Positions 5,351 through 60,338 of a DNA stretch of 64,000 nt are shown here, one piece after another (the first letter of the stretch is position 1; every line of letters begins with the position of its first letter). The notes beneath the pieces were generated by a model, which saw nothing but the letters and a program-made list of their open reading frames with translations, was not told the DNA's origin and did no database searches. Source of the DNA: an uncultured Desulfomonile sp. (lineage in GTDB: Bacteria; Desulfobacterota; Desulfomonilia; Desulfomonilales; Desulfomonilaceae); NCBI GenBank assembly GCA_903952205.1, contig CAJBEZ010000008.1, positions 1-64,000 on the forward strand, written 5' to 3'. The translations under genes were made by a program, and so were the position numbers.

Positions 5351-5470
5351 TTCTGGCCAAATGGTATTCGGGTTATGACGTTCAGTTATTTATTTTTCTA
5401 CGACAGACTTACGGACTCGGAGGTATTTTGCCGCATCCTTTCTGGTCTGTTGGCCATTTTGTTCATTGTC

Positions 5471-5836: not shown

Positions 5837-5883
5837 ACGTACTCCTTGCTTGAAATTATTGACCCAGCTAAAGGTTGACTGGT

Positions 5884-6387
5884 CTATTTCATAGGTTTCC
5901 ACGGCTTTAGAACAGAAATGAATACTGCAAAAATCACAGTAAGGTTCTGTAAAGCCCCTCCCCATAGATTCATGGTTCTTGCGTGAAGATAGATCGGGTT
6001 AGAAAGAGCAGCCATCCCTTCTGCCTGTGAAATGGGCGGCAGAGCGTTAAGCCATTGTCCAAGCCAAAATGTGCCGAAGACTACCCCGAAGATGTTGATG
6101 AGCCATTTCACCGTGATCCATCGATGTTTAAACCACCCCCAAACAGTTAACAGCGAGTAAATAACTCCTGTCAGTAAGCACCCTGTCGCTGCAGGTGCAA
6201 CTAATACGTCGTCGATGAACTTCCTCGACATATCAACACCGTAGAGCTGTAACCCTTCTGTTGGTTTTATGAACAGGCTCATCAGAGTGAGACATAAACC
6301 ACAGGCTGCCCATGTACAACCAAACAGTATATGGAAGCTTTTTAGCCATTTCTGTCCCACCGGACCCATTTTCCCCATATTACTCAA
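5884..6387 (-). CDS. four-helix integral membrane protein of unknown function
   Basis: A 167-residue hydrophobic protein with four predicted membrane helices: roughly residues 16 to 38, 65 to 84, 92 to 112 and 140 to 160. It is rich in Trp and Gly. I do not recognise the family with certainty; small DUF2269-like or copper-resistance-D-like proteins are similar in layout. Its start overlaps the end of the marR gene by four bases, so it is translationally coupled to the regulator and probably under its control, together with the downstream monooxygenase. Confidence 0.7.
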   Translation of the reverse strand: MSNMGKMGPVGQKWLKSFHILFGCTWAACGLCLTLMSLFIKPTEGLQLYGVDMSRKFIDDVLVAPAATGCLLTGVIYSLLTVWGWFKHRWITVKWLINIFGVVFGTFWLGQWLNALPPISQAEGMAALSNPIYLHARTMNLWGGALQNLTVIFAVFISVLKPWKPMK

Positions 6388-34838: not shown

Positions 34839-36827
34839 ATGCAGGATAAACTCCAAAATCTACGTCTTCCTCTGGATGGTCATATTGACCTGACTTACCG
34901 ATGCAATAACCACTGCCGGCACTGCTGGTTGTGGTTACCGGCGAACTTAAGAGAACAAAAAGAAGAACTAACTTTTGATGAAATAAAACGTATCGTTGAT
35001 GAAGCCCGGTCCATGGGTTGCCGTAAATGGAGTATATCCGGTGGTGAGCCAATGCTGCGGCCCGATTTCCCGGAAATCTTCGACTATGTTACCAGTAAGG
35101 CCGTCTCATATAGCCTCAACACCAATGGGACCCTCATTACCCCAGAAATGGCAACGATCCTGAAGCGCAAGGGAACGAAAATGGTCGCCCTATATGGGGC
35201 CACCAAGGAAACCTATGACCATGTCACCCGCCATCCCGGCGGCTTTGAAAAGGTCATGCGGGGCTTCAGTTACCTGAAGGAAGCAGGGGCCGGGTTCATA
35301 GTGCAGTTGATCCCTATGCGGGACAACTGGCATGAATGGGACGAGATGCAGGAACTGGCGCAGTCTCTGAGCAGTCATTGGCGTATCGGCGCCCCATGGC
35401 TGTATCTGTCGGCAAGCGGTGATCCGAGGGTAAATGAGGAGATCAGGAGGCAGAGGCTTGACCCGAAGGATGTGGTGGAACTCGATAAACCCGACATGAC
35501 TTATGATGAAAACATGGGGGGAGAAACCGGGCCCCATTCATGCCAAAACTGTGAAGATGACTATCTGTTCGCGAGTTGTATAAAGGGTCGTCGTGATTTT
35601 CACGTAGATCCCTATGGAAAGATGAGTTTCTGCGCTTTTCTGAAAGATCCAGCGTTTCGCTATGACTTACGCCAGGGTAGTTTTGAAGATTGCTGGGAAC
35701 GCTTTATCCCGTCGTTATCGGTCAAGGCGCAGCTTGGACGGGAATATGTCGAGAACTGTGGCGCCTGTGAAAACCGGCGGGACTGCCGGTGGTGCGCTGT
35801 GTACGCCTGGCTCGAACACAGGCGATTTTCCGCGCCTGTCGAACATCTGTGTGAAGTGGCGACTGCAAACAGTCGTTTCAAGAAAGACTGGAGGACCTCA
35901 CATCGCCGTTTTTATAAAATTGCAGGGATAACTATTCAGGTTGACAGCGATCTGCCCTTCACAGATCAGACCTTTCACCCCAAGTTTGCGGCCTTCCGCG
36001 TTGACGGACCCGGTCCGGACACGGTGAGCATACGTCATCACTTCAGTCTGCCCGACCTGACAGGCAAGGATTTGGGTCGCGAGATGTACCGCAAACCGCC
36101 CTGGGCCATATACAGGCAAAACTCCTCCTATATCTATCTCGGCATCTCGCCTCAACCTGACGACCCTACACTGCACAGGGCCGTGACTTTCAATAACGAC
36201 CATTCCAGGGCAAAGATATACAACAATCAGAAAGAAGTCTGGCTGAATGGCGATCTACATTCTCTGACGCTTTTCCCTTCGGACCAGGTCTTGATCGCCC
36301 GCCTCCTGGCTGACCGGCAGGGTTGTTACTTCCATTCCGCGGCCGCCATCGTAAATGGCGCTGGAATGATCTTTATTGGCCACTCAGAGGCCGGTAAGAC
36401 CACGACGACGCATTTGCTGACGGATGCGAGCCGACCCGGAAACGGCAGTTCGAACCTTCAGGTTGAGATCCTCTGCGATGACCGGAACATAGTCCGGCGC
36501 CTCGAGGACGGCTGGTGGGTTTACGGCACATGGAGTCACGGTGATAGCCCTCTAATCTCCGCTAACGGAGCGCCTATGCACGCGATCCTCTTCCTTGAGC
36601 AGGGCGACGAAAACACGCTGACCCCGCTTATTGACCGGAAAGAGATAGTCCGGCGCCTCCTGGGGTGTGTAGTCAAATCATTTGTCACAGCGGACTGGTG
36701 GAACAAAACCCTCGACACGATTGAGCGGATGTCACACGAGGCCCCCTGCTACGTCATGCGGTTCGACAGGACAGGAAAGATTGTGGAGGAGCTAGTCAAA
36801 CTGGCCGACCGTCCCTCGTTCATGTGA
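34839..36827 (+). CDS. radical SAM/SPASM protein fused to an HPr-kinase-like domain
   Basis: A 662-residue two-part protein. Residues 15 to 210 are a radical SAM domain with TYRCNNHCRHCW (CxxxCxxC for the 4Fe-4S/SAM cluster, Cys22, 26, 29) and the SISGGEPMLRPDF segment. Residues 230 to 345 carry a Cys-rich SPASM domain for auxiliary clusters (CQNC, CGACENRRDCRWC, HLCEV). From about residue 350 the chain turns into a fold like HPr kinase/PEP carboxykinase, with P-loop FIGHSEAGKTTTTHLL near 512 and CDDRNIVRR after it. HPr-kinase-like enzymes phosphorylate the C-terminal Ser in some lasso peptide pathways, but fusion to a radical SAM enzyme is unusual to me. I use the ATG at 34839; a TTG 21 bases upstream is possible. 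First gene of the peptide-modification cluster. Confidence 0.85.
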   Translation: MQDKLQNLRLPLDGHIDLTYRCNNHCRHCWLWLPANLREQKEELTFDEIKRIVDEARSMGCRKWSISGGEPMLRPDFPEIFDYVTSKAVSYSLNTNGTLITPEMATILKRKGTKMVALYGATKETYDHVTRHPGGFEKVMRGFSYLKEAGAGFIVQLIPMRDNWHEWDEMQELAQSLSSHWRIGAPWLYLSASGDPRVNEEIRRQRLDPKDVVELDKPDMTYDENMGGETGPHSCQNCEDDYLFASCIKGRRDFHVDPYGKMSFCAFLKDPAFRYDLRQGSFEDCWERFIPSLSVKAQLGREYVENCGACENRRDCRWCAVYAWLEHRRFSAPVEHLCEVATANSRFKKDWRTSHRRFYKIAGITIQVDSDLPFTDQTFHPKFAAFRVDGPGPDTVSIRHHFSLPDLTGKDLGREMYRKPPWAIYRQNSSYIYLGISPQPDDPTLHRAVTFNNDHSRAKIYNNQKEVWLNGDLHSLTLFPSDQVLIARLLADRQGCYFHSAAAIVNGAGMIFIGHSEAGKTTTTHLLTDASRPGNGSSNLQVEILCDDRNIVRRLEDGWWVYGTWSHGDSPLISANGAPMHAILFLEQGDENTLTPLIDRKEIVRRLLGCVVKSFVTADWWNKTLDTIERMSHEAPCYVMRFDRTGKIVEELVKLADRPSFM

Positions 36828-36866: not shown

Positions 36867-37037
36867 ATGACGCAACGTTACACAATCCAGGCTGTTATTT
36901 ATCCGGGGGATGAAACGGTGCAGAATCTTAGAGACGCTATTCATCTACATTTGGAGGGAGAGGATCTGGTTGATATGGGACTGGTTCCGCACGCTCCACT
37001 ATTGGCAACTATGGAGATGGATCCGATATATGCCTGA
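36867..37037 (+). pseudogene. HicB-like antitoxin remnant
   Basis: A 56-codon frame. It opens like HicB antitoxins (YTIQAVIYPGDE), lacks the central core and then gives their C-terminal part (TVQNLRDAIHLHLEG and PHAPLLATMEM). The middle ~25 residues have been lost in frame. No HicA toxin gene is next to it. It sits in the gap between the first and second radical SAM genes and is probably a leftover of insertion, though a short peptide could still be made. AAGAGG lies 6 bases before the ATG. Confidence 0.5.
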
Positions 37038-37061: not shown

Positions 37062-38225
37062 ATGACATACACAAAGAAACTCAAACCCCATGAATTTGTC
37101 TTTCCGGCGGGTAAAGGGCCGAGACTGTCGCAAATAGACATTGAACTAACGGAGCGCTGCAACAACAACTGTATCCACTGCCTCATAAATCGTCAGGAAA
37201 ACGACGAACACGCTCACTCCCGTGAGATGGATACGGCATTCGTAAAGGATCTCCTAAAACAGGCAGCGGACCTTGGCTGCCTCGCTGTCCGTTTCACCGG
37301 CGGCGAACCCTTGTTGAGAGAAGATTTCGCTGAATTATATATGTTTGCCCGCCGCCTGGGTATGCATGTTATTCTGTTTACCAACGGCCGCCTTATCACA
37401 CCTGAACTGGCCAGACTCTTTGCCAAATATCCACCGGGCAAACCTATAGAAGTCAGTGTATACGGTATGAGGCCTGAAAGCTATGACGCCGCTGCAGGGA
37501 AAAAAGGGGCTCACGCGGAATTTTGGCGTGGTATGGAACTGCTTCGCGAGCATAAGGTCTGGTTTGTGGTGAAGAGCAGTATATTGCCGCCCAACCGTGA
37601 TGACATGGTGGATTTTGAGCAGTGGCTGACAGAGATTGATGGCGAGGATAGCCAGCCACGCTATGCAATGAATTTTGATTTGAGGGCGCGGCGTGATGAT
37701 CCCGGAAAAAACGAACGTATCAGGCGGTTGAGGCTATCGCCGGAAGAGACGATGAGCGTGCTGAAGCGCAGCCCAATTTATGTGGATAGCATGCGGGAGT
37801 TCTGCGGGAAATTTATGAGTCCGTCCGGGAATAAACTGTTTTCCTGCGGCGCCGGTCACGGGACCTGCGTCGACGCTTATGGCAAGGCACAGATGTGCAT
37901 GGGCCTGCGAGATCCTGAAACAGTTGTTGACTTGCATGAAGCAACATTGAAGGCTGCTTTGGAACATTCATTTCCAAAACTGCGAGAAATCAGGGCGACC
38001 GATCCTGAATATCTGGCGCGTTGCGCCAGGTGCTTCCTGAAGGGCCTGTGCGAACAGTGCCCGGCCAAATCCTGGATGGAGCATGGCACGCTTGATACGC
38101 CGGTCGAGTATCTATGCGGCTTAGCCCATGCCCAAGCTCTATATCTAGGTCTGATCACAGAAAACGAAAAAGCGTGGGAAGTTGAGAATTGGCGTGAGCG
38201 GATTGATCTTTTCAGCCGAAAATAA
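37062..38225 (+). CDS. radical SAM/SPASM peptide-modifying enzyme 2
   Basis: A 387-residue enzyme. The radical SAM cluster motif is TERCNNNCIHC near residues 31 to 41, with VRFTGGEPLLREDF after it. The C-terminal SPASM region is rich in Cys (SCGAGHGTCVDAYGKAQMC, CARCFLKGLCEQC, YLCGLAHA). Such enzymes form thioether, C-C or epimerised bonds in ribosomal peptides. It differs clearly from the other two radical SAM proteins of the cluster, so it probably does a different step. It leads directly (21 bases) to the PqqD-like gene. Confidence 0.9.
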   Translation: MTYTKKLKPHEFVFPAGKGPRLSQIDIELTERCNNNCIHCLINRQENDEHAHSREMDTAFVKDLLKQAADLGCLAVRFTGGEPLLREDFAELYMFARRLGMHVILFTNGRLITPELARLFAKYPPGKPIEVSVYGMRPESYDAAAGKKGAHAEFWRGMELLREHKVWFVVKSSILPPNRDDMVDFEQWLTEIDGEDSQPRYAMNFDLRARRDDPGKNERIRRLRLSPEETMSVLKRSPIYVDSMREFCGKFMSPSGNKLFSCGAGHGTCVDAYGKAQMCMGLRDPETVVDLHEATLKAALEHSFPKLREIRATDPEYLARCARCFLKGLCEQCPAKSWMEHGTLDTPVEYLCGLAHAQALYLGLITENEKAWEVENWRERIDLFSRK

Positions 38226-38246: not shown

Positions 38247-38552
38247 ATGGATGACGTGACGTTCGATATGGTTTGTTTCCCCTCCGAGGACATTGTGGCA
38301 AGAGAAATCGAAGGCGAGTTGATCATTGTGCCGCTTGTCGCCGGTATCGGCGACACGGATGATGAACTCTATACGTTGAACGAGACAGGCAAAGCCATCT
38401 GGTCCAGATTAGACGGAAAAAGAACACTTCGGGCCATATCAGAGGAATTGGCTACGGAATTCAACGCTCCTCTCGAGGAAGTCGGAAAAGATTTGTCCGG
38501 TCTGATGAATGAGCTTATACGTCGGAAGATGATCCTCGTTCAGTCTGTTTGA
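38247..38552 (+). CDS. PqqD family peptide-binding (RRE) protein
   Basis: A 101-residue PqqD-like protein: an N-terminal beta part (DIVAREIEGELIIVPL) followed by the helical LNETGKAIWSRLDGKRTLRA and ISEELATEFNAPLEEVGKDL. In PqqD and related RRE domains this fold binds the precursor's leader peptide and presents it to the radical SAM enzyme. Strong ribosome site TAGGAGG. It sits between two radical SAM genes, supporting a role as common chaperone for the pathway. Confidence 0.92.
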   Translation: MDDVTFDMVCFPSEDIVAREIEGELIIVPLVAGIGDTDDELYTLNETGKAIWSRLDGKRTLRAISEELATEFNAPLEEVGKDLSGLMNELIRRKMILVQSV

Positions 38553-38586
38553 ACCTGTTTTGGTTGTGGGACAACCCTGTAACAAA

Positions 38587-39561
38587 ATGAAATCAAAGGA
38601 TGTAATTGATTGTGATATTTCCTCATGCCCGTTCCGTATAGCAGATCAGAATCGCTGCTCCTTGCCGGACTGGCAGTATCACAGGATGGAATCTACGGGC
38701 GGCAGCCGCATCACGAATAGTCTCGTTGTTGAATCATTGGAAATCGGTCGGGCGCTTGCGGATCATGGCAGGGCCAAATTTCGCGCCGGTGGCACGTGCA
38801 TGTATCCGTGTGTCCAGCCCGGCGATACACTCCATATCGAAGCCCGCCCCATCGATGACATCCCTGTTGGCAGTATCACGGTGTTCCGCAGAAACGGCCG
38901 TCTCTTTGGACATCGGGCAATCGCCAGTGGTGTCGATGATGACGGACCATACATCGTCACACGTCCCGACCGTAGCGATCAAGGCAGCGATGGACCTATC
39001 CGTGAACAGAATATACTTGGTGTTGTTTCGAAGATCGATCGTAAGGGTAAACAGGTTTCCACGGCGCCAATTGCCCTCAGGGGCGCTGCAAGGGCGAGCG
39101 CCATGATTCTGGAGTGGTGGGACGTTAGTGCCCGGTCGCTGGTGGTCAGTGGGCTTGAAAGAGTTCAACGTTTGAGCGTTTATGAAAACATAGCGCCGCT
39201 CTGGTTCAAACTTTTTAGACCTCAGATCCGTTTTGAGGTACGAACCCCGCTCAAACCGAGGCAATCCCATGACTTGTACAGATTGTTTCCGCCAGATGAA
39301 TTCGATGTGTCTCTGCCCGTTCAGCAAGGGAAACCGGTTATGGAATGGACGTTGGCGCTCTATCTCAACGCCGGGAAATCCCCCGCAGCATGGGCAACCC
39401 TGATCCGCAGCCCGGAGGGATGCCCCATCGGGATGGGGTGGCATATTGCGAACAGGAGAATGCAGCTCCGTTATCAAGGGATTGGGCTGGACAATGCCGT
39501 TACCGGCAAGGCAGGCGAGATTTTGGCCCGAACTGGTATGGCCATCATACAGGAGGCGTAA
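38587..39561 (+). CDS. signal-peptidase-like protein with Cys replacing Ser, and GNAT-like C-terminus
   Basis: A ~324-residue protein. Residues 65 to 165 look like an S24/S26 signal peptidase fold: RAGGTCMYPCVQPGDTL aligns with the GxSMxPxLxxGD motif. Cys71 stands where the catalytic Ser should be. GHRAI (His109) matches the Ser/His type of signal peptidases, and TRPDRSDQGSD gives nearby Asp residues. No membrane helix is visible. From about residue 195 on, WATLIRSPEGCPIGMGWHI and MQLRYQGIGLDNAV resemble a GNAT acetyl-CoA loop. The N-terminus has four extra Cys. The start is uncertain (ATG 38587 or TTG 38560). It may be a cytosolic processing protease/acyltransferase of the pathway, or a non-catalytic relative. 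Confidence 0.7.
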   Translation: MKSKDVIDCDISSCPFRIADQNRCSLPDWQYHRMESTGGSRITNSLVVESLEIGRALADHGRAKFRAGGTCMYPCVQPGDTLHIEARPIDDIPVGSITVFRRNGRLFGHRAIASGVDDDGPYIVTRPDRSDQGSDGPIREQNILGVVSKIDRKGKQVSTAPIALRGAARASAMILEWWDVSARSLVVSGLERVQRLSVYENIAPLWFKLFRPQIRFEVRTPLKPRQSHDLYRLFPPDEFDVSLPVQQGKPVMEWTLALYLNAGKSPAAWATLIRSPEGCPIGMGWHIANRRMQLRYQGIGLDNAVTGKAGEILARTGMAIIQEA

Positions 39562-40668
39562 ATGTATCCCACCTCAACCATGCAAATCCAGGATTTCCCG
39601 CTCTGGGACAAACTCAAGGAGCGGCGGGCCATCATGTCATTTGACCTGGAGATTACAGCCCGCTGCAATCTCCACTGCGGCCATTGTTATATCAATCTCC
39701 CCGCTAACGACCAGGAGGCCCGGGCAAAGGAATTGACCGTTCAGGAGATAGGGGGAATCGCCGATCAGGCGGTTGCCCTTGGGGCGGTTTGGGCGCTTAT
39801 CTCCGGCGGAGAACCACTCCTGCGTCCGGACTTTCCTGAAATTTACATGACCCTCAAGAGAAAGGGACTCCTCGTTTCTGTATTCACAAATGCGACCCTG
39901 TTGCGGGAGGATCACATTTCATTGTTGAAAAAATACCCGCCCAGGGATATCGAAGTTACGGTGTACGGCGCCTCTTCTGAGACGTACGATAGTGTCACCC
40001 GACGTCCGGGCGCCTTTGCCGCCTTCACGCATGGTCTGAACCGACTCCTCGAAAGCGGCGTCAAGGTCCGCCTCAAGGCAATGGCCCTACGTTCGAATTT
40101 CCACGAATTGCCTGAGATTGCGGCCTTCTGCCGATCCCATACGAAGGATTACTTTCGTTTTGACCCCCAGTTGCATTTGCGTTTCGACAGGGATGAGGGA
40201 CGCAACGCGGAAATCATGGCTGAACGCCTGACGCCTGAGGAGATCGTAGCGCTCGAGAGGGCCGATGGCGACCGTTTTACAGCCTTACAGAAAAACTGCG
40301 ACACACTGATCAGCGATGAGTTTACCCACTACGGCTGTGATCATCTCTTCCACTGCGGGGCAGGCAATGGCAGCTTCAATGTCGGTTACGACGGAAAATT
40401 CAGGCTATGTTCTTCCCTGTGGGCGCCGCAGACACTGTATGATCTGCGGAAAGGGACACTGCGGGATGCATGGGAACAGTTTGTGCCGCAGGTCCGGGAT
40501 ATGCGCTCGCAACGCCCTGAGTTCCTGGACCGGTGCCGTCGGTGCTCCATAATCAATCTATGCCTGTGGTGTCCGGCCCATTCATATCTCGAAACGGGCG
40601 AAATGGACACTGTTGTAGATTACTTTTGCCGGGTCGCGCACGCACGAGCAGCGGCCATAAGTGGCTGA
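39562..40668 (+). CDS. radical SAM/SPASM peptide-modifying enzyme 3
   Basis: A 368-residue enzyme. ITARCNLHCGHCYINLP (CxxxCxxC near residues 34 to 41) and ALISGGEPLLRPDF mark the radical SAM domain. The SPASM region has YGCDHLFHCGAGNGSFNVGY, CRRCSIINLCLWC and YFCRVAHA. It starts right after the stop of the signal-peptidase-like gene, with its ribosome site (AGGAGG) inside that gene, so the two are coupled. The region around the third Cys set resembles enzyme 2, suggesting common ancestry. Confidence 0.9.
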   Translation: MYPTSTMQIQDFPLWDKLKERRAIMSFDLEITARCNLHCGHCYINLPANDQEARAKELTVQEIGGIADQAVALGAVWALISGGEPLLRPDFPEIYMTLKRKGLLVSVFTNATLLREDHISLLKKYPPRDIEVTVYGASSETYDSVTRRPGAFAAFTHGLNRLLESGVKVRLKAMALRSNFHELPEIAAFCRSHTKDYFRFDPQLHLRFDRDEGRNAEIMAERLTPEEIVALERADGDRFTALQKNCDTLISDEFTHYGCDHLFHCGAGNGSFNVGYDGKFRLCSSLWAPQTLYDLRKGTLRDAWEQFVPQVRDMRSQRPEFLDRCRRCSIINLCLWCPAHSYLETGEMDTVVDYFCRVAHARAAAISG

Positions 40669-43462: not shown

Positions 43463-44707
43463 ATGGCAAAGCCCGGCAAAGAAATTATGAATCGGATAGA
43501 AACGCCTGATCAGCTTGACGAGTTTCTACGTTTCAAATCCACGAAGAGCTGGCTTGCCCTGGCTTCGATGGCCGGTATTGTTACACTGGCGGTCATCTGG
43601 GGAATTTTCGGTGAGGTGCAGACAAAGGTCGAGGGCACAGCCATCCTTTTGGCGGAGGGAGGGTTGTTTCAAATCGTCGCCAAGGAGTCCGGCCATCTCC
43701 AGGAATGTAAGGTTCGTTCAGGTGACATCATTCAGGAAGGACAAATCGTAGCTGTTGTCAACAATCCACAGCTTGAAAACCAGATCAACACGAAGCAGGC
43801 GGAAATCGATTCAATAATAGCAAGCCGTTTTAAACAGTCTCAACTGATTCTCGCCAGGACAGACGCTCAAAAGCGGGTGTTTGAAACACAACGGCTGCAA
43901 TTGATACAGAGGAAGGTGTTCATTGAACGGCGTCTCAGGGCCCTGGACGAGCGGGTAAGAACTTATGAGGAACTACTGAAGGAAGGAGCGGCCACTCGCC
44001 AAGCGTATCTCAACGCCAAACTGGAATATGAAAAAACCCTGGAAGATGGGGCGTCGGTCGACACCGAGCTGAACGAGCGAAATTTGAAAAGGCGAGAGCT
44101 TGAAGCCAGTGTTCACGATCAGCTATTTCAACTAAAGTATAAACTCAGCCTGGCGCAAGGCGAGCTTTCGGCCCTGCAAAAAAAAATGGATCTCACCACC
44201 TCGATCAGAAGCGATTTTCATGGTCGGGTTATTGAGGTATTGGCCCGGCAGGGTCAGCGCGTTCTGGAGGGTCAGGCCATCGTGACCTGTGATAGGGCTC
44301 TCACTCACCTGGAGGTTGAGATATTCGTCCCCGCGGCCGAAGGAAAGAAGATCCTTCCAGGAATGAGAATACAGGTTGTGCCGTCCACTGTTCAGCGTGA
44401 GGAGTACGGGTTCATGACCGGGAAAGTGTCTAGCGTTGATATATTCCCTATCTCCAGGGACGCCCTGCTTTCGTGGCTGAAGAATGACAAACTTGTTGAT
44501 TCCGTCATGCAAAAGGGCCCCTTGTTATCTGTCTTAGGATCGCTCGATCGTGACCCTTCCACCAAAAGCGGCTTCCATTGGTCATCACTTAAGGGATCGG
44601 AGGTGGAACTCACCGCAGGGACCATGGGTAAAGCCGAAGTGGTGGTTTCGAAGCAGCCGCCGGCCGCTTTGGTATTACCAGCGATTAAGAAGTGGTTGGG
44701 CTCCTGA
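43463..44707 (+). CDS. NHLM-type export membrane fusion protein (HlyD-like), cassette 1
   Basis: A 414-residue adaptor. One membrane helix (residues 30 to 48) is followed by a lipoyl-like beta part (VAKESGHLQECKVRSGDIIQ), a coiled coil of about 130 residues (QLILARTDAQKRVF to KLSLAQGELSALQKK) and a second lipoyl half plus beta barrel (VPSTVQREEYGFMTGKVSSV). This layout is that of the secretion protein of NHLM bacteriocin systems. It should join the inner-membrane ABC transporter to TolC. Its stop is one base from the next gene's ATG. Confidence 0.88.
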   Translation: MAKPGKEIMNRIETPDQLDEFLRFKSTKSWLALASMAGIVTLAVIWGIFGEVQTKVEGTAILLAEGGLFQIVAKESGHLQECKVRSGDIIQEGQIVAVVNNPQLENQINTKQAEIDSIIASRFKQSQLILARTDAQKRVFETQRLQLIQRKVFIERRLRALDERVRTYEELLKEGAATRQAYLNAKLEYEKTLEDGASVDTELNERNLKRRELEASVHDQLFQLKYKLSLAQGELSALQKKMDLTTSIRSDFHGRVIEVLARQGQRVLEGQAIVTCDRALTHLEVEIFVPAAEGKKILPGMRIQVVPSTVQREEYGFMTGKVSSVDIFPISRDALLSWLKNDKLVDSVMQKGPLLSVLGSLDRDPSTKSGFHWSSLKGSEVELTAGTMGKAEVVVSKQPPAALVLPAIKKWLGS

Positions 44708-44708
44708 A

Positions 44709-46913
44709 ATGATTGCCCGTCATCTTCAGTCCGTCAAAAAGTATCTGCGGTCCTTATTCAAACCCCAGAACCGATTTGTTACCCCTACTGTCATTCAGAT
44801 GGAATCGATCGAATGCGGAGCGGCCGCTTTATGCATGATTGCGGCCTACTACGGACGCTGGGTGACCCTGGAACAGATGCGGATCGATTGCGGCGTTTCT
44901 CGTGATGGCAGCAAGGCCGGCAACATCCTGAAGGCGGCGCAAGGATATGGTCTGATCGCAAGTGAGCGTCATCCTGAGATCGAAGATCTCAAGAAGCTTC
45001 CCTTCCCGCTGATAGCCTTGTGGAATTCGAATCACTATGTGGTTGTTGAAGGTTATGGACCTAAGAAATGGTATCTTAACGACCCTAGCGGGGGGCCAAG
45101 AGACGTGGCGCCGGAGGAATTCGACAAGAGCTTTAGCCGAGTCGCAATGACCTTCCAGCCTGGACCCGACTTCCAGCCGGGCGGAGAGAAGCCCAGCACG
45201 CTGAGGGCGCTGCGGAAGAGGGGGAAGGGTCTCGGCCTGGAACTGCTCTACGCCTTTATCGCCGGTTTGATGCTGGCGCTTCTAGGGCTTGTTATCCCAG
45301 CGTTCACGAAAATCTTCGTGGACGAGTTCATGCTGGGTAATACTTCGTACTACGTTCGCCCGCTGCTTATTGCCATGGGGATTGCCATCTTCATGCAGGC
45401 TTGTCTCACGTGGCTCAGGGAAAGTGTGTTGCTTCGTCTGGAGACAAAACTGGCATTGCTGACTTCCGCCAAATTTTATCTTCACCTGTTAAAACTTCCG
45501 GTGACATTTTTCTTTCATCGTTATGCAGGCGAGGTAGGTTCACGAATCTCATTAAATGACTATATCGCCTCTATTCTTTCGGGACAGCTCGCAACCAGCA
45601 TTCTCTCCTGTTTCACCGCCGTGTTCTTTTTTCTTGCCATGCTCCAGTACGATACATGGCTAAGTCTTTTTGCCGGAGTAATTGCCGTCATTAATCTTCT
45701 AGCGCTCCAGTTTGTGGCCAGAAAACGTAAGGATATAAACAAACGAAACCTGGAGAAATCAGGGAAGTCCTATGGCGTCGGTATGTCAGGGATGATGAAC
45801 ATTGAAACCATAAAAGCCACGGCAGGTGAATCGGACTTTTTTGCCCGCTGGGTCGGCTATCAGGCTTTGCGCGTGAACGCCCAGCAGGATTCCGGAGCGT
45901 TTTCTCAACTGTTTGCCGTCGTTCCCGCCCTTCTTACGAGCTTCAGTTCTATGGTGATCCTTGGGGTCGGTGGAATCAGAATCATGGACGGTTTTATGAG
46001 CATCGGGGGGCTGGTCGCCTTTCAGATGCTTATGAACAGTTTCAATAGTCCTTTTTCCACGTTGCTCTCTCTCGGCGCTCAGGTTCAGGAACTGGAAGGG
46101 TCTGTTCAAAGGCTCGACGATGTTCTCAACCATGGCATTGATCCACAGCTAAGCCGTAGTGAGAAGGTCCCTGTTTCCCCGCTCGAACCCGCTAAGCTGA
46201 CTGGCCACTTATATATTAGGAATCTCTCCTTCGGGTATAGCAGATTCGACAAACCTCTCATCCAGGATTTCAGCCTGGTGTTGACACCCGGAAGGCGAGT
46301 AGCCCTCGTTGGAGGATCCGGAAGCGGCAAGTCGACGGTTGCAAAGCTCGTTGCGGGAATCTATGAACAGTGGAAAGGCGATATCCTGTTTGACGGCAAA
46401 TCCCGGTCGGAGATCCCTCGAAAGGTGATGACCAACTCCCTCGCCATGGTCGACCAGGACATCATGCTGTTTGAAGGCACAGTGCGAGAGAACATCTCCA
46501 TGTGGGACGATACCATGACGGATGAGGTTGTTATCCGTGCGGCCCAGGACGCTTGCATGCATGACGATATTGCGGCGGCGCAGGGCGGGTACGATCACGT
46601 TCTGGACGAAGGCGGCCGAAACCTGAGCGGAGGACAGCGCCAACGCATGGAAATTGCCAGATCACTGGCAATGGATCCAACCATACTGATCCTGGATGAG
46701 GCGACCAGCGCTCTTGATCCCCTGACGGAAAAAATGGTTGACGACAATATAAGAGTCCGCGGGTGCGCCTGCCTGATTGTCGCCCATCGGCTGAGCACCA
46801 TAAGAGACTGCGACGAGATACTTGTTATGGAGAGCGGCGGCGTGGTCCAACGTGGGACTCACGAAGACATGGCCCATATCGATGGACCGTACGCCCGTTT
46901 GATCAAGGAATAA
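44709..46913 (+). CDS. C39 peptidase/ABC exporter (NHLM-type), cassette 1
   Basis: A 734-residue bacteriocin-type exporter. The N-terminal C39 peptidase has the nucleophile Cys in QMESIECGAAALCMIAAYYG, His in SNHYVVVEG and Asp in LNDPSGGPR, so all three catalytic residues are present. Six membrane helices follow, then an ATPase with Walker A GGSGSGKST, signature LSGGQRQRMEIARSLAMDP and Walker B ILILDEATSALD. It cleaves leaders after GG/GA-type sites during export. The ATG at 44709, two bases after the HlyD stop, starts the protein at its normal N-terminus. Confidence 0.92.
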   Translation: MIARHLQSVKKYLRSLFKPQNRFVTPTVIQMESIECGAAALCMIAAYYGRWVTLEQMRIDCGVSRDGSKAGNILKAAQGYGLIASERHPEIEDLKKLPFPLIALWNSNHYVVVEGYGPKKWYLNDPSGGPRDVAPEEFDKSFSRVAMTFQPGPDFQPGGEKPSTLRALRKRGKGLGLELLYAFIAGLMLALLGLVIPAFTKIFVDEFMLGNTSYYVRPLLIAMGIAIFMQACLTWLRESVLLRLETKLALLTSAKFYLHLLKLPVTFFFHRYAGEVGSRISLNDYIASILSGQLATSILSCFTAVFFFLAMLQYDTWLSLFAGVIAVINLLALQFVARKRKDINKRNLEKSGKSYGVGMSGMMNIETIKATAGESDFFARWVGYQALRVNAQQDSGAFSQLFAVVPALLTSFSSMVILGVGGIRIMDGFMSIGGLVAFQMLMNSFNSPFSTLLSLGAQVQELEGSVQRLDDVLNHGIDPQLSRSEKVPVSPLEPAKLTGHLYIRNLSFGYSRFDKPLIQDFSLVLTPGRRVALVGGSGSGKSTVAKLVAGIYEQWKGDILFDGKSRSEIPRKVMTNSLAMVDQDIMLFEGTVRENISMWDDTMTDEVVIRAAQDACMHDDIAAAQGGYDHVLDEGGRNLSGGQRQRMEIARSLAMDPTILILDEATSALDPLTEKMVDDNIRVRGCACLIVAHRLSTIRDCDEILVMESGGVVQRGTHEDMAHIDGPYARLIKE

Positions 46914-46973
46914 TGACAGGATTGCCCCGCTCACATGAGTGAGGTTCCTGCTGTTTGAATCGAGGAAACACAT

Positions 46974-49889
46974 TTGACACGTCCGATTGCCCACCATGTC
47001 CGCGAAGTTGGAGAGGCTTTAGAGGTAGGAGCCAACCAACCATTTTGGTTGGGTGAAGCTGACTCGTTCTGGATGGTGGAACAGGGAACCGTTGATATCT
47101 TTTCCGTCAGAACAGAAAAAGGACAACACGAGGGGCGGCGAAGACGTTTGTGCCGCGTAAGGGCCGGCGAATTTATTTTCCCTTTGAAGCCCAGCGAGGG
47201 TGACCACTTCTTGAGTTTTCTCGGGGTGCCGGGGCCTGATACCTGTTTAATCAGGACCAACGTGGCTCATTTGGAGTCCATGCAGAAAGACCCGGTTCTC
47301 TCTGAAGCTTTAGCCTTGGCCGCCGACACCTGGGTCTCTGTCTTATCAACCTCACTCAGTATCGGCCGACTGGTCCCTAAATATTCACAGGAAATCAGGA
47401 ACGGACAGACACTTGATTTGGGGCCTGGCCAGACAGTCCACTGCGCCGCCGGCGCTCTGTGGATTGTCCAGAGTGACGGAACCACACGGTACCTTGGTCG
47501 AGATGACCTGCCTTTGATCCGGCCGGACTATTATACGCCGCTTTGCAGTCATACCTGGCTTACAGCAGTCGAAAAAACCCGGCTGCAGGCGTTCGCTTTG
47601 TCCAAGCTTCTGATGCAGGGAGTCGCCCTTATGCGTTGCCTCTCTCAGTTCCACGTTCAGGTTTTCAAATTGACAATTCTGGAGCTGGAAGCGGTAGACA
47701 GCATCGAAAGAAATCGCCTTCTGGCGGGCATCGACCACGACCACCAAGTTGCGCAAAGCGCATTGGGCCACCTTTCAGCGGTTCTCGGCAAGGATAGCGT
47801 TGGACTTGAGGCGACCACGAGCGACCCACTTTTCAACGCCTGTCAGATTGTGGGGGAGGCGCAGGGCATCAAAATCGCGCGACCGGTGGACTCTTCTGGA
47901 ATTCTGGATATGGATGACGCCGTATCACGCATAGCGCATGCGTCAGGTTTCCGGACCAGAGCAATCAAGCTCAAAGGAAAGTGGTGGACGGATGATCACG
48001 GGCCGATCCTTGGGACCTTGTCAGGGGATGGGTCGCCAGTAGCGATACTGCCCGACCGAAAGGGACGGTATCATATCCATGATCCTTCTTCCCACTCGCA
48101 AGTTCTTGTCGACGCTTCGGTAAATGAGACCTTGGACCCCGGTGCGTTTGTGTTCTGCCGACCGTTTCCGGACGGACGACTTACCCCATTGTCACTGTTC
48201 CTTTTCGCCTTGGCCGGTCATCGAAAAGACATTCGGTTGATCATTCTTTTGGGGCTCGGCTCCGGTCTACTGGCGACTTTTGTTCCCGTGGCTACAGGTG
48301 TGTTGTATGACTCCGTCATTCCCAGTTCGAACAGGACTCTTCTGTTTCAGATGGTGGCCGGCCTGGCGGCGGGGTCCTTTGTTTCGGCCATATTCCAGCT
48401 TGTTCAGGGACTGGCGCAACTCAGGTTTCTTGGTGGGATGGAAGCGACACTTGAAATCGCCGTATGGGACCGCCTCCTGAATCTACCGGCGGTCTTCTTC
48501 AGGCGATTTTCCGCGGGTGATCTGGCCAATCGCTCCTCATCCGTTTACCAGATTCAGCAGTATATTTCAGGAGCGGTGCTCGGGTCGCTACTCTCTGGTG
48601 TGTTCGGCTCGTTTAACATAGCTCTGCTATTCTACTACTCTCCGATTCTCGGAATCCTGGGATTGGCGATTCTGTTTGTTTCCGCCTTGATACTCGCTGT
48701 ATTGCTTGTGATACAGCTCAAATATCAAGCGCCTCAATTTAAGCTGTATGGAAAAATCGCCGGTCTGAATCTTCAGATTTTGACGAGCATAACGAAACTC
48801 AGGGCAAACGCTTCCGAATTGAGGGCTTTCAAAAAATGGTCCCTCACGTATTCTCAGCTCAAAGAGCTTACCGTCAAATATCGCAAGTTGGGTATGGCAG
48901 CCTCGATTTTTCAATCTTCGCTGCCTCTTGTTATTTCCCTTGCGACTTTCGCTGCGCTGGCCCGGATGTGGAACCCCGATGATCCATTTATGCAAACGGG
49001 GCAGTTTCTTGCCTTCACCGCTGCTTTGACAGCGGTCATTGCCTCTGTGATGTCCGCTCTGTCGAACCTTACCAGGGTCCTCTCCGTAATTCCGCTTTAT
49101 GAGCGAATGCAGCCCATATTGGAGCAGGCGCCTGAGACACAAACCTCAAAGACAGCGCTCGGCCAGCTTACCGGCGCCTTGGAGATGGCTCACGTCAATT
49201 TCCAATACAAACCCGATGAACCGGAAGTCCTCAAAGATGTGAATTTCAAGGCGGATCCAGGCGAATTCATTGCCCTTGTGGGACCTTCCGGATCAGGCAA
49301 GTCGACCATACTAAGACTTCTCATAGGGTTCGAAACACCTGGATCAGGCTCGATATACTATGATGGGAAGATGCTTGCGGAACTGGACATTCAGGCGGTA
49401 AGACGTCAGTTGGGTGTGGCGCTCCAGGGGGGACAAGTGCTCTCCGGAACCATTTTTGAGGCTATTACCGGCGGATCTCGGCTCACTATGGAAGACGCAT
49501 GGGAGGCTGCCCGCATGGCCGCTGTTGACAAGGATATCGAAGCAATGCCGATGGGCATGGCCACGGTTATCGGTGAACAGGGGGCAGGCATATCAGGAGG
49601 TCAGCGCCAGAGGCTTCTCATTGCCCGGGCTATCGTGAGGAAGCCCCGGATAGTGTTGTTTGATGAGGCTACCAGCGCTTTGGATAACGTCAGCCAAGCC
49701 CTGGTCAGCAAGAGCCTCGAAGGGCTTCAGGCCACTCGCATCGTGATCGCTCATCGCCTGAGCACCATTAGAAACGCCAACCGCATTTATGTGCTGGTGC
49801 GCGGCGAAGTAGTAGAATCAGGCTCTTATGAACAACTCATGGCCAAGGGCGGGGTTTTCTCAGAGTTGGCGAAACGGCAAATTGCCTGA
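46974..49889 (+). CDS. second NHLM-type ABC transporter (no peptidase), cassette 1
   Basis: A 971-residue ABC protein. The first ~380 residues form a cytosolic region typical of the second ABC subunit of NHLM systems (with KWWTDDHGPILGT), in place of a C39 domain. A six-helix membrane part follows, then an ATPase: Walker A GPSGSGKST, signature ISGGQRQRLLIARAI, Walker B IVLFDEATSALDN. It probably pairs with the C39 transporter as a heterodimer. The start is a TTG with GAGGA 8 bases upstream; no in-frame ATG fits better. Confidence 0.88.
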   Translation: MTRPIAHHVREVGEALEVGANQPFWLGEADSFWMVEQGTVDIFSVRTEKGQHEGRRRRLCRVRAGEFIFPLKPSEGDHFLSFLGVPGPDTCLIRTNVAHLESMQKDPVLSEALALAADTWVSVLSTSLSIGRLVPKYSQEIRNGQTLDLGPGQTVHCAAGALWIVQSDGTTRYLGRDDLPLIRPDYYTPLCSHTWLTAVEKTRLQAFALSKLLMQGVALMRCLSQFHVQVFKLTILELEAVDSIERNRLLAGIDHDHQVAQSALGHLSAVLGKDSVGLEATTSDPLFNACQIVGEAQGIKIARPVDSSGILDMDDAVSRIAHASGFRTRAIKLKGKWWTDDHGPILGTLSGDGSPVAILPDRKGRYHIHDPSSHSQVLVDASVNETLDPGAFVFCRPFPDGRLTPLSLFLFALAGHRKDIRLIILLGLGSGLLATFVPVATGVLYDSVIPSSNRTLLFQMVAGLAAGSFVSAIFQLVQGLAQLRFLGGMEATLEIAVWDRLLNLPAVFFRRFSAGDLANRSSSVYQIQQYISGAVLGSLLSGVFGSFNIALLFYYSPILGILGLAILFVSALILAVLLVIQLKYQAPQFKLYGKIAGLNLQILTSITKLRANASELRAFKKWSLTYSQLKELTVKYRKLGMAASIFQSSLPLVISLATFAALARMWNPDDPFMQTGQFLAFTAALTAVIASVMSALSNLTRVLSVIPLYERMQPILEQAPETQTSKTALGQLTGALEMAHVNFQYKPDEPEVLKDVNFKADPGEFIALVGPSGSGKSTILRLLIGFETPGSGSIYYDGKMLAELDIQAVRRQLGVALQGGQVLSGTIFEAITGGSRLTMEDAWEAARMAAVDKDIEAMPMGMATVIGEQGAGISGGQRQRLLIARAIVRKPRIVLFDEATSALDNVSQALVSKSLEGLQATRIVIAHRLSTIRNANRIYVLVRGEVVESGSYEQLMAKGGVFSELAKRQIA

Positions 49890-52682: not shown

Positions 52683-52886
52683 ATGACAGACAGCAAGAAA
52701 CAATGGGTTAAACCGGAACTGATCGTTCTGGTCAGGAGTAATCCGGCGGAAGCGGTGTTGGGGGCGTGTAAGGGTTCAGGGTGGGACCCTCAGGTGCCGG
52801 CGATGAGGGCTAACCAATGTAATGAGAGTGAGATGCGGGGCAATGGGTCGATTTGTGTGGCATGTATGGGTATTGCGGCGAGCTAA
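52683..52886 (+). CDS. candidate RiPP precursor peptide, 67 residues, four Cys
   Basis: A short gene with a strong ribosome site (TGGAGG, 5 bases before the ATG). The N-terminal part is charged and hydrophobic (KQWVKPELIVLVRSNPAEAV), as expected of a leader bound by a PqqD-type protein. LGA at residues 26 to 28 could be a C39-type GA cleavage site. The predicted core of 39 residues would hold all Cys (29, 46, 58 and 61), several Gly/Ser and the C-terminus GIAAS. It sits between two NHLM export cassettes in the same orientation as both. The role as precursor is inferred; no radical SAM signature by itself proves it. Confidence 0.75.
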   Translation: MTDSKKQWVKPELIVLVRSNPAEAVLGACKGSGWDPQVPAMRANQCNESEMRGNGSICVACMGIAAS

Positions 52887-53379: not shown

Positions 53380-53578
53380 GAATTCTCCCCTATCGAAATC
53401 ACTTTTCTGGTAGAGAACTTTGTTGTGTCTTGTAGTCTCGAACCTTATTACGAATTTTTATTACGACAACACCATACAGGGAAGGTCCTACGGTGTCGAA
53501 TTCATTTGAAATTCAGCCCCGGTTCTTCTATGTTCAATATTATTGGATGGGAAACCAAGTTCATTAGAGTGCAGGATT

Positions 53579-54826
53579 ATGGAACAGCTATTCAGACAAG
53601 ATGTCATGGATCGACTTAACTCCCCGGAACGTCTAGATGAACTATTAAAGATAACCTCGCCTCGAGGCTGGATAGCATTGTTATCCCTGGCGCTGGTAAT
53701 CCTTACAGCTCTAGCCTGGGGCATATATGGCACGATTTCTACCAAGGTGGATGGTTCAGGCATATTCATCGACCCGGAGGGAGTTCACCCTGTAATATCG
53801 CTCGGTTCAGGAAGGCTTAGTTCGATCCGGGTCAAAGTCGGCGACATTGTAGAAGTCGGTCAGTTGGTGGCTACTATGACCAACCCTGATGTCCAGAAAC
53901 AACTGGACAATCAGAAGATCATTTTATCAGTCCTGGAAAAGGAGTATGCCCAGGAAAAGAATCTGATGGAGAAGGAGTCTGAGTCCAAGCGGCGAGTTCT
54001 TGGGGCCCAAAGAGACAATATAAACAGTTCAATCAAGATTCAGGATAGCAAGGCTAAATGGCTTAAAGATAGGCTTAGCGCATACGAAGACCTGTTCGCT
54101 GAGGGGTATGTCCTCAAACAGAATGTTGTCCAGACCAGGCTGGATCTGGATAACACCATGCTTGAGTCCGAGAAACTCCAGAATGAACTGGGAAACAATC
54201 ACCTTCAGGAAGTAGAACTTCAGGAAAGCCTCCAGCAGAGAATTTTCAAACAGAAATTCGACATTGAACAGGCTAAAGGCAAAGAGGAACTCCTTGAACG
54301 TCAGCTCGAAGAGTCAACTCAGGTTTTTAGCCCGATCAAGGGCACTGTGATCTCACTGGAAGCAATGGAAGAATCCATGATCCAGACAGGAATGACAATA
54401 CTTAATGTGGAACCCCTTGAACCAGGTCTGAAAGTCTTCATGAGCGTTTCAGCGATGAAAGGCAAAAAAATTCAGCCGGGCATGACTGCGGAAATTACCC
54501 CGACCACTGTTAAGAGGGAAGAATACGGATATATATTTGGAACGGTCATAGACATTAGCGAATTTCCAATTACTGCTGATAGCCTCATGAGATTGTTCAA
54601 CAATCGTAGTTTTGTGGAGGACGCCATCAGGCTTGGTCCTCTAACCTCGGTCAACATAGAGCCGGTGAAGGACACAACCACGCGGAGTGGGTTCAAATGG
54701 TCCAGCCAGAAGGGGGCAAAGGTGCTGGTTACTGTGGGCACGCTTTGTTCCGGCGAGGTTGTGGTCAAACTTCAGTCCCCAATATCATTGGTGATTCCAA
54801 AACTGAAAGAATGGATAGGCCAATAG
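53579..54826 (+). CDS. NHLM-type export membrane fusion protein (HlyD-like), cassette 2
   Basis: A ~415-residue paralogue of the cassette 1 adaptor: an N-terminal helix (residues 28 to 48), the lipoyl half SLGSGRLSSIRVKVGDIVEV, a coiled coil of about 130 residues and the end region TPTTVKREEYGYIFGTVIDI, which closely matches its counterpart. I start at the ATG at 53579 by comparison with cassette 1, since a frame 12 codons longer has no match there. The next gene's TTG lies one base after the stop. Confidence 0.85.
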   Translation: MEQLFRQDVMDRLNSPERLDELLKITSPRGWIALLSLALVILTALAWGIYGTISTKVDGSGIFIDPEGVHPVISLGSGRLSSIRVKVGDIVEVGQLVATMTNPDVQKQLDNQKIILSVLEKEYAQEKNLMEKESESKRRVLGAQRDNINSSIKIQDSKAKWLKDRLSAYEDLFAEGYVLKQNVVQTRLDLDNTMLESEKLQNELGNNHLQEVELQESLQQRIFKQKFDIEQAKGKEELLERQLEESTQVFSPIKGTVISLEAMEESMIQTGMTILNVEPLEPGLKVFMSVSAMKGKKIQPGMTAEITPTTVKREEYGYIFGTVIDISEFPITADSLMRLFNNRSFVEDAIRLGPLTSVNIEPVKDTTTRSGFKWSSQKGAKVLVTVGTLCSGEVVVKLQSPISLVIPKLKEWIGQ

Positions 54827-54827
54827 C

Positions 54828-57026
54828 TTGCTGGACTCTATAAAAAACTGGTTCCTCACACAAAATACAGCTAAACCCCGGCGTGTCCGTACTCCAACCG
54901 TACTGCAAATGGAGGCCGCTGAATGCGGAGCGGCTTGTATGACCATGATTCTGGCCCACTATGGCAGATGGGTCCCGCTGGACAAGGTTCGGCTGGACTG
55001 CGGCGTTTCCCGTGATGGGAGCAAAGCGAGTTACGTTGTCAAAGCGGCTGAAGGCTATGGCCTGTATGCGCAGGGATTACGGGTAAGCCCTGAAAGTATT
55101 AAGGAACTCAAATTCCCGCTAATAGCGTTCTGGAATCTTAACCACTTCGTGGTAGTCGAGGGTTTTGACAAAAAGCGCTGGTTTTTGAACGATCCTGCTG
55201 AAGGCCCGCGCACCGTCACGTATGAAGAATTCGACAGAAGTCTCAGTGGAGTGGCTCTTACCTTTGACAAGAGTCCGCAATTTCAGGAAGGAGGGCAGAA
55301 ACCCAGGCTTTTCAATTCCTTGAAGAAAAGGGCAATCGGGATGTGTCCGGCTCTGGCTTACGCCCTTCTGACTGGGCTACTCCTTACATTTATCGGACTC
55401 GTCATCCCCACCTTCACAAAAATATATGTCGACCACTACCTGATGGACAGACAGGTGGATTGGCTCAAAGCCCTGTTGTGGATAATGCTGATCACAATTT
55501 TCCTGAATATGGGTGTCACATGGCTACAACAGAACATTCTGCTGAGATTAAATTTTAAGCTCGCACTAAGCAGTTCGTCGGCGTTCTTTAACCACCTGTT
55601 GCGTCTTCCTGTTGATTTCTTTTTTCAACGATACAGCGGCGAGATTCAGTCCAGGGTAGCGCTCAATGATAGAGTAGCTTCACTATTATCGGGGCAGCTA
55701 TCCTCTACCATGTTGCACTGTCTTACTTCCGTCTTCTTCGTTGCAGTCATGCTTAGTTACAGTGTTTTCCTTACCGCAATTGGCGTTGTCGGAGCGATTC
55801 TCAACCTAATGGCGCTTGAAGGGGTTTCCCGCAAACGAAGAGACCTTAACAAACGCCTGTTGCAGGAAAAAGGCAAACTGACCGGCGTGACTATGTCCGG
55901 CATTTACATGATAGAGACACTCAAATCAGCAGGAAGGGAGGACGACTTCTTTGCTCGCTGGTCGGGCTATCAGGCAAAGACTACAAGCGCAGGCCAGGAA
56001 CTTGGTTTTTGGTCGGCAATGCTGGACAGGGTGCCTCCTTTTCTGGCGTCATTGAACGCCATCTCCGTTCTTGGATTTGGAGGTGTTCTGGTGATGCAGG
56101 GTTTTTTGACTTTGGGTGACATGATGGCGTTTCAGGCTTTATTGTCAGGTTTTATCCAACCTATCAACAACCTGGTAGGGCTGGGAAGTCAGTTGCAGGA
56201 AATCGAAGGAGACCTTGGCAGGCTTGACGATGTTTTGGCAAATCCTGTCGATGAGGAACTCGCAAAGGCCGAAGCCGTAAAACTGACACCGGATCTTGCT
56301 GAAAAACTCAATGGAAAAGTTGAAATCAACAACATTTCTTTTGCCTACGGCCGGTTTGACAAACCTTTCATCAACCAGTTCAGCCTTACCATAAATCCCG
56401 GAAGCAGGGTCGCTCTGGTCGGAGCTTCCGGCAGCGGTAAATCCACTCTCGGAAATCTCGTCGCCGGATTATACACCCCGACTCAGGGAGAAATCCGGTT
56501 TGACGGCAAACTGAGGTCGGAAATCCCCCGGCTGGTTATGGCCAATTCCCTTGCCAAGGTGGATCAGGACGTTATTCTTTTTGAGGGCTCAATCAGGGAC
56601 AACATTGCTCTATGGAATGACAGCGTCACTGACACGGCAATTATTCAGTCGGCCAAGGACGCATGTATCCACGATGTGATCAGTTCCCGGCCACTGGGGT
56701 ATGAGGACCAAATCATTGAAGCGGGAAGGAATTTCAGCGGCGGCCAACGGCAACGTCTGGAAATAGCCAGAGCTTTGGCTCTGGAGCCGTCAATTCTGAT
56801 CCTTGATGAGGCGACCAGCGCCCTCGATCCGCTCACGGAAAAAATCATAGATGATAATTTACGTCGCAGAGGCTGTTCATGCCTGATTATTGCGCACAGA
56901 CTCAGCACAATACGTGATAGCGATGAGATCATTGTTTTAAAAGGCGGCCAGGTTATCGAAAGAGGCTTGCACGATGAGCTTGTGGCACTCAATGGCTACT
57001 ATGCCGAATTGCTGAAGGATACATAG
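54828..57026 (+). CDS. C39 peptidase/ABC exporter (NHLM-type), cassette 2
   Basis: A 732-residue paralogue of the cassette 1 exporter, strongly similar along its length. The C39 domain retains Cys (QMEAAECGAACMTMILAHYG), His (LNHFVVVEG) and Asp (LNDPAEGPR). The ATPase has GASGSGKST, FSGGQRQRLEIARALALEP and ILILDEATSALD. A TTG start is needed to cover the N-terminus; it is coupled to the HlyD-like gene. The active site is intact, so this is not a degenerate copy. Confidence 0.92.
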   Translation: MLDSIKNWFLTQNTAKPRRVRTPTVLQMEAAECGAACMTMILAHYGRWVPLDKVRLDCGVSRDGSKASYVVKAAEGYGLYAQGLRVSPESIKELKFPLIAFWNLNHFVVVEGFDKKRWFLNDPAEGPRTVTYEEFDRSLSGVALTFDKSPQFQEGGQKPRLFNSLKKRAIGMCPALAYALLTGLLLTFIGLVIPTFTKIYVDHYLMDRQVDWLKALLWIMLITIFLNMGVTWLQQNILLRLNFKLALSSSSAFFNHLLRLPVDFFFQRYSGEIQSRVALNDRVASLLSGQLSSTMLHCLTSVFFVAVMLSYSVFLTAIGVVGAILNLMALEGVSRKRRDLNKRLLQEKGKLTGVTMSGIYMIETLKSAGREDDFFARWSGYQAKTTSAGQELGFWSAMLDRVPPFLASLNAISVLGFGGVLVMQGFLTLGDMMAFQALLSGFIQPINNLVGLGSQLQEIEGDLGRLDDVLANPVDEELAKAEAVKLTPDLAEKLNGKVEINNISFAYGRFDKPFINQFSLTINPGSRVALVGASGSGKSTLGNLVAGLYTPTQGEIRFDGKLRSEIPRLVMANSLAKVDQDVILFEGSIRDNIALWNDSVTDTAIIQSAKDACIHDVISSRPLGYEDQIIEAGRNFSGGQRQRLEIARALALEPSILILDEATSALDPLTEKIIDDNLRRRGCSCLIIAHRLSTIRDSDEIIVLKGGQVIERGLHDELVALNGYYAELLKDT

Positions 57027-59978: not shown

Positions 59979-60338
59979 AAAGTCGTCTGAACAATTAGCG
60001 GGTTTTTCGGCGTTTCCTACATTTGGACATCCTCCCTCCAGACAAATTATGGCATGGTATATTATATTAATTGGTCATACCCAATAATGTATAAGTTACA
60101 TTAAGAAATTATTATAATATATTGACTAATCATGGTTTTTATGAATATTATTATGAATGAAGCCTTGAAGGGAATCCCAAATAACCTGTTCAATAAGTCG
60201 TAGTATTAATTGATGATTCACTTAAAACCGCACGAAGTGGCTCTTCAGCAGCGTCTGCCTGTAACCGGGCAGGTCGGGAGACAAAACCGGACCATGCCGA
60301 ACGGCTCGGTGTGGGGATTGCGTATCAAAAGGTTCGTA
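59979..60338. other. AT-rich gap before the second TolC gene
   Basis: Past the ABC gene an AT-rich run from 60045 to 60200 carries a promoter-like pair (listed separately). Open frame exists from 60210 to the TolC start, but that stretch has no ribosome site or signal-peptide character. No second precursor peptide could be found here. Confidence 0.4.
60122..60151 (+). promoter_or_regulatory. promoter-like pair before TolC of cassette 2
   Basis: TTGACT at 60122 to 60127 and TATTAT at 60146 to 60151, spaced 18 bases. It would let tolC be read independently of the ABC genes. The AT-rich setting makes false matches likely. Confidence 0.35.

Follow-up and report, generated by a model that had tools for sequence, protein, structure and literature searches.

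Introduction

Peptide kinases related to HPr kinase are known from lasso-peptide biosynthesis. PadeK, ThcoK, SyanK and BsfK are HPr-kinase homologues that occur in RiPP clusters together with a PqqD-type recognition element. PadeK, ThcoK and SyanK target a C-terminal Ser, and the motif is H-(15)-G...GK[ST]...DD (PMC10368454, PMC8498205). BsfK phosphorylates Ser3, which lies inside the core (PMC10368454), and pseudomycoidin provides a precedent for further decoration of a phosphoserine (PMC8498205). In the literature that we searched, HPr-type peptide kinases of RiPP pathways are described from lasso peptides only. That search, which was made mostly outside subscription journals, turned up no paper in which an HPr-kinase domain is coupled with radical SAM chemistry in an enzyme.

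In SynChlorMet cassettes (SCM; NCBIfam TIGR04248-TIGR04251) an HprK-like protein, ScmC (TIGR04249), is encoded alongside radical SAM/SPASM enzymes and a PqqD-like protein, and the locus described here has the same three components. Radical SAM/SPASM maturases, including MftC, ScmE/ScmF, PqqE and the sactisynthases, share a radical SAM domain and SPASM cysteines. A third relative is HPr(Ser) kinase/phosphorylase itself (TIGR00679, PF07475; PDB 1jb1, 2qmh).

The window analyzed in this study is a 64,000-nucleotide stretch of DNA from an uncultured Desulfomonile sp. It encodes a protein that is probably a bifunctional RiPP maturase, predicted from its sequence and its relatives to modify a cysteine-rich core and to phosphorylate a terminal Ser or Thr. 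Like the lasso kinases, its kinase-like domain belongs to the HPr-kinase homologues of RiPP clusters with a PqqD-type element; unlike them, it shares a polypeptide with a radical SAM/SPASM enzyme, its family does not conserve the second P-loop glycine, and it is encoded in a cluster in which no lasso cyclase was found among the proteins scanned and whose precursors are Cys-rich with an unrelated leader.

Gene content of the locus

The features of the locus are listed below.

34839..36827, + strand: fused protein, radical SAM/SPASM maturase (about residues 1-345) and HPr-kinase-like domain (about residues 351-662)
34902..34925, + strand: radical SAM [4Fe-4S] motif CNNHCRHC (C22-x3-C26-x2-C29; residues 22-29 of the fused protein)
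36333..36335, + strand: H499, the kinase His, 15 residues ahead of the P-loop and equivalent to H148 of the lasso kinase BsfK (PMC10368454)
36378..36401, + strand: P-loop GHSEAGKT (residues 514-521)
36474..36485, + strand: C-D-D-R motif (C546-D547-D548-R549; residues 546-549)
37062..38225, + strand: second radical SAM/SPASM enzyme (rSAM2)
38247..38552, + strand: stand-alone PqqD-type leader-binding protein (PF05402, E 1.9e-14)
38560..39561, + strand: S26/signal-peptidase-like protein with Cys at the position of the S26 nucleophilic Ser (GTCMYP)
39562..40668, + strand: third radical SAM/SPASM enzyme (rSAM3)
43463..49889, + strand: NHLM-type exporter set 1, putatively tied to the precursor by its position, with an HlyD-like protein (43463-44707), a C39-peptidase ABC protein (44550-46913) and a second ABC protein (46974-49889)
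50125-51558: TolC of exporter set 1
52683..52886, + strand: candidate precursor with leader KKQWVKPELIVLVRSNPAEAVLGACK, a three-Cys core and a C-terminal Ser
53543..59978, + strand: NHLM-type exporter set 2, directly 3' of the precursor, its putative role suggested by position
60210-61775: TolC of exporter set 2

Two solute-binding-protein genes on the opposite strand, recognized by eye, separate the rSAM3 side from the exporter sets. Between 43463 and 61775, two full NHLM-type sets (HlyD, C39-ABC, ABC and TolC) surround a single precursor gene, and no such paired sets were noticed in the relatives' loci that were fetched. Long S26-like proteins with GTCMxP, in which Cys replaces the nucleophilic Ser, are encoded at 38560-39561 and also at L053:7192-8421 and L155:4745-5812. 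Shorter S26 proteins in sister loci have G-x-SM-x-P.

The 56-aa ORF at 36867-37037, between the fusion and rSAM2, looks by eye like a shortened HicB antitoxin without a library match. At first it resembled a precursor, but it was rejected because the leader motif is absent and nothing in the family matches it.

The original prediction had drawn on HPr-kinase-like enzymes of some lasso pathways. Neither a lasso cyclase (asparagine-synthetase-like) nor a B2 protease was present among the scanned proteins of 27.6-61.8 kb, so a lasso-peptide cluster was rejected and the locus is better described as a non-lasso RiPP cluster.

The fused protein

The interval 34839-36827 is one open frame on the + strand, with ATG at 34839, a stop at 36827 and 662 aa. 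Its N-terminal half matches Pfam Radical_SAM (PF04055, residues 18-173, E 8.6e-23). With the CxxxCxxC motif and a SPASM-type cluster (C307-x2-C310-x5-C316-x2-C319-x18-C338), this agrees with the original description of the front half as a radical SAM/SPASM enzyme. The SPASM cysteines after the barrel (CxxCx5CxxC...C), assigned by pattern and not by a domain model, are kept in 17 fusions. The mycofactocin maturase MftC is the top NCBIfam match of the fused enzyme at 111 bits, far under the MftC cut-off of 265, and the protein differs from the known maturases of this class in its added C-terminal kinase-like domain.

Relatives of the fused protein can be aligned with it end to end at 61-70% identity, which argues against chance read-through. 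Judged by these alignments, the fusion of a radical SAM/SPASM enzyme with an HPr-kinase-like domain is real and old. About 20 loci from several phyla carry it. Homologues of the C-terminal half were present in 26 of 395 genomes from the same phylum as the source and in three genomes of a genome collection, including a WOR-3 MAG and an Anaerolineales MAG. Fusions of about 670 aa were found in four same-phylum genomes (G000, G292, G367 and G330), and the others had stand-alone proteins of 290-350 aa. In L161 the fused gene is split within the kinase domain by about 2.4 kb, into parts at 4442-6052 and 8443-9006.

The HPr-kinase-like domain

The lasso-kinase motif H-G-G-G-K-S-D-D (PMC10368454) is matched in the C-terminal half except at the second glycine of GxxGxGK, where Glu517 occurs at a position that varies across the family; Thr stands for Ser at 521. 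A further motif, G563-T-W-S-H-G, follows. H499, G514, G519, K520, D547, D548 and R549 are invariant in an alignment of 22 family members, so that catalytic residues beyond the P-loop, whose loss would have argued against a kinase, are conserved. In a larger set of 41 rows, which includes a frameshifted kinase (L126), the H, G, GK, DD and R residues occur in all rows except three divergent stand-alone kinases without part of the motif (L067-L069) and three fused domains.

Family membership was examined with profile searches. The C-terminal half alone had ScmC as its first NCBIfam match (E 2e-4; 20.7 bits against a curated TIGR04249 cut-off of 125 bits), followed weakly by HprK_rel_B (E 0.11). 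It had no significant match in Pfam, and phmmer against PDB returned only chance matches to the P-loop. No HPr-kinase model reached significance with the window protein by itself. Stand-alone homologues that are 43-50% identical to the C-terminal half match TIGR00679 HPr(Ser) kinase (1.6e-5, L056), ScmC (1.6e-11, L056) and HprK_rel_B (1.5e-7, L058). PF07475 (Hpr_kinase_C) is matched by 12 of the 22 aligned members (best 1.1e-5), and a profile of the family hits the solved HPr kinase structures 1jb1/2qmh (E 3.3e-4), the aligned span starting at the His and ending at DD-R. Matches of the profile to ABC transporters were discounted, since they cover only the P-loop region, whereas those to HprK run from the His to DD-R.

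The C-terminal half alone matches only ScmC and, weakly, HprK_rel_B; its link to HPr kinase comes through its relatives. By that route the original reading of the rear half, made from its P-loop and CDDRN, was upheld: members of the family, though not the window sequence taken alone, match profiles of the HPr kinase superfamily. The family shares this superfamily with HPr(Ser) kinase/phosphorylase but stays below the curated TIGR00679 cut-off of 240 bits (best homologue 24.3 bits, window C-terminal half unlisted), leaves the rest of HprK unmatched, and sits in RiPP operons. AlphaFold2 models built from four or five sequences had a mean pLDDT of 45 for the C-terminal domain and 38 for the full protein.

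Fused domains that have lost catalytic residues

Three fused kinase domains (L158:3868-5850, L159:8316-10367 and L163:11785-13536) have lost most or all catalytic residues and are still kept at full length. L158 and L159 share ancestry, so the three represent two events. Each of these loci also encodes an intact stand-alone kinase (L158_9129, L159_10999 and L163_10994), and among the other fused loci an extra intact kinase occurs only in L156, in a separate cluster. Catalysis by a kinase therefore appears to be required in these pathways. Retention at full length means that a non-catalytic role is possible, and the dead domains are probably retained for docking.

The original prediction had offered either one enzyme for two steps or kinase-like use as a binding module. 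Both appear in the family, since most fused domains are intact and three are dead with a separate intact kinase. An HPr-kinase-like half that merely binds the peptide or a partner enzyme, or acts as a scaffold for either, with no catalysis in the window protein, is unlikely. The persistence of the three dead domains would fit such a role, but all catalytic residues are intact in the window protein and in nearly all other fusions, and the additional intact kinases would be pointless if catalysis were unimportant. A catalytic kinase half in the window protein is thus preferred.

Precursor peptides

The precursor at 52683-52886, located between the exporter sets, reads MTDSKKQWVKPELIVLVRSNPAEAVLGACKGSGWDPQVPAMRANQCNESEMRGNGSICVACMGIAAS and ends in ...GIAAS, in line with the terminal Ser given for the candidate precursor in the original prediction. 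An orphan precursor on another contig (L045) has the same leader and ends in ...LPS. The core GSGWDPQV...GIAAS is identical at L117:211-420 (G396, another genus), where the leader differs.

Precursors were collected with a leader-only profile of 28 positions, without regard to the kinase or the C-terminus. The 60 distinct precursors ended in Ser (50), Thr (7), Tyr (1), His (1) and Arg (1). The His and Arg enders both come from one MAG (G422), in which the kinase gene is likewise frameshifted; alternative frames give three-cysteine cores ending in ...DNPS and ...AVVSS, and on this basis the two were counted as Ser in the total. The phylum of G420 yielded ten further precursors (70 in all with the leader profile), seven ending in Ser and three in Thr, and three found by eye beside further kinases (L059, L060 and L065) all end in Ser. 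In total, the last residue is Ser in 62, Thr in 10 and Tyr in 1 of 73 precursors. As a background, Ser was last in 8.2% of the 441 long ORFs taken from these loci. The nominal P of the excess is about 5e-56, a value that ignores common descent, but apart from its last residue the core is hypervariable.

Nearly all confident leader matches sit in genomes or loci with the kinase family; for some on short contigs (L117, L157, L176 and L177) no enzymes were seen. None of the leader-family precursors came from a genome shown to be kinase-free, so comparisons within the family do not separate the terminal Ser from the leader. G433 has five near-identical short precursors on five contigs (L131-L135), which end in ...CPTIGT or ...CPTLGT, and only that of L132 adjoins a kinase/radical SAM set.

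Comparison with ScmC cassettes

Of the same 395 genomes, 18 encode bona fide ScmC proteins, which lie above the curated cut-off at 150-304 bits. The 15 ScmC loci examined have a similar gene logic, with radical SAM/SPASM enzymes, PqqD, an HprK-like protein and sometimes S26, and ScmC is the top NCBIfam match of the fused C-terminal half. The window domain scores far lower than these proteins, and the precursors differ as well. ScmC cassette precursors consist of Cys-x-x-Gly repeats, which the window precursor family lacks, and none of the 13 read ended in Ser, Thr or Tyr. Wherever the motif was read, ScmC has DD without the following Arg, and in none of the 15 loci was ScmC seen fused to a radical SAM enzyme. 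The short Cys-x-x-Gly-repeat peptides beside bona fide ScmC (L213-L227) have a leader with Y-x-x-P and resemble cassette precursors. The distant kinase of L069, which has DDS instead of DDR, also adjoins Cys-x-x-Gly-repeat peptides. Together with the ScmC precursors, this indicates that the terminal Ser tracks the DD-R subfamily and not HprK-like RiPP proteins in general. Our guess is that R549 reads the terminal carboxylate of the peptide.

A kinase that targets another Ser or Thr of the precursor or core, possibly in preparation for dehydration, would leave the terminal Ser as a signal for, e.g., peptidase or exporter recognition. BsfK shows that an HprK-like RiPP kinase can work inside the core (PMC10368454), and several bona fide ScmC proteins retain the His, P-loop and DD though their precursors are not Ser-ended. 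In the hypervariable cores, however, no internal Ser or Thr position stands out and the last residue does; no lyase or dehydratase was matched among the scanned cluster proteins; and Thr substitutes for the terminal Ser, as expected of a kinase target. We think an internal site improbable and favor the terminal residue as the substrate. From the intact residues, the hydroxyl-bearing C-termini of 73/73 precursors and the extra kinases beside dead domains, we infer that kinase activity is retained in the HPr-kinase-like half.

Core cysteines and the fused radical SAM domain

Precursors were assigned by hand to 33 kinase rows, as the nearest in the locus or from the same genome. Three core cysteines (C-x4-9-C-x2-3-C) were present in 16/16 fused rows and two or fewer in 17/17 stand-alone rows (Fisher 9e-10, ignoring descent); the precursors of stand-alone-kinase clusters mostly have two. 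In the kinase tree, stand-alone kinases nest within the fused clade (L052 by fused L050; the stand-alones of L156, L158 and L159 by fused L126). Cysteine number follows architecture in all three supported independent pairs (five on the best tree), although a sample of three pairs is too small to reach significance. L156 and L158 have both architectures in one stretch with largely matching precursors, L158 having one extra three-cysteine precursor.

A strict rule of three cysteines with fused and two with stand-alone kinases is weakened by genomes or loci that have two-cysteine precursors alongside the fusion (L100, L179 and L182). Because of these the rule is one-way: three-cysteine precursors are confined to places where rSAM1, the fused radical SAM domain, is present or could be hidden by an incomplete contig. 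We infer that this domain may act on the extra, C-terminal-most cysteine pair. The original prediction had expected the fusion to correlate with a terminal Ser. Terminal Ser is indeed prevalent, but it tracks the kinase family, fused or stand-alone, and what accompanies the fusion itself is the third core cysteine.

Discussion

The proposed pathway would begin with the PqqD protein (38247-38552), which from the function of PqqD probably holds the precursor leader W-x-KPxLIVLVR...EEAVLxxCK. The radical SAM/SPASM half, together with rSAM2 and rSAM3, would modify the cysteine-rich core. The correlation with the third core cysteine ties the fused radical SAM domain to that residue, and its chemistry may be, e.g., thioether formation. 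The kinase half would use ATP to phosphorylate the side-chain hydroxyl of the C-terminal Ser or Thr, in the manner of the lasso-peptide kinases, and the fusion would keep both activities on one stretch at the C-terminus of the peptide. The leader may be removed and the product exported through the S26-like protein, an NHLM C39 transporter or both, as their positions suggest.

A more specific proposal, which we offer tentatively and consider somewhat doubtful, is a RiPP class in which one polypeptide couples radical SAM modification of a C-terminal cysteine to recognition and phosphorylation of the terminal Ser or Thr of the same peptide, with the kinase domain also docking the peptide. Such docking on behalf of the radical SAM half would explain why the domain persists after catalytic loss where a second kinase is available. 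That the terminal phosphate is an intermediate and the phosphoserine is later decorated with a sugar, nucleotide or lipid, for which pseudomycoidin is the precedent (PMC8498205), is very unlikely, as no nucleotidyl- or glycosyltransferase occurs among the scanned window cluster genes.

The bifunctional maturase preferred here would extend terminal-Ser phosphorylation to radical-SAM peptides in several phyla, with a substrate rule, terminal Ser or Thr, that is legible from sequence. It would also assign precursors to an HprK-like group that appears in libraries only as a cassette protein or "HprK-related kinase." The naturally dead and split kinases would offer a means to separate catalysis from docking, and the correspondence of one extra radical SAM domain with one extra cysteine gives a specific prediction of which enzyme acts where. 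The locus and its relatives may represent a family of radical-SAM RiPPs whose terminal-Ser kinase is fused in one branch, and they point to phosphorylated natural products of a family not yet described.
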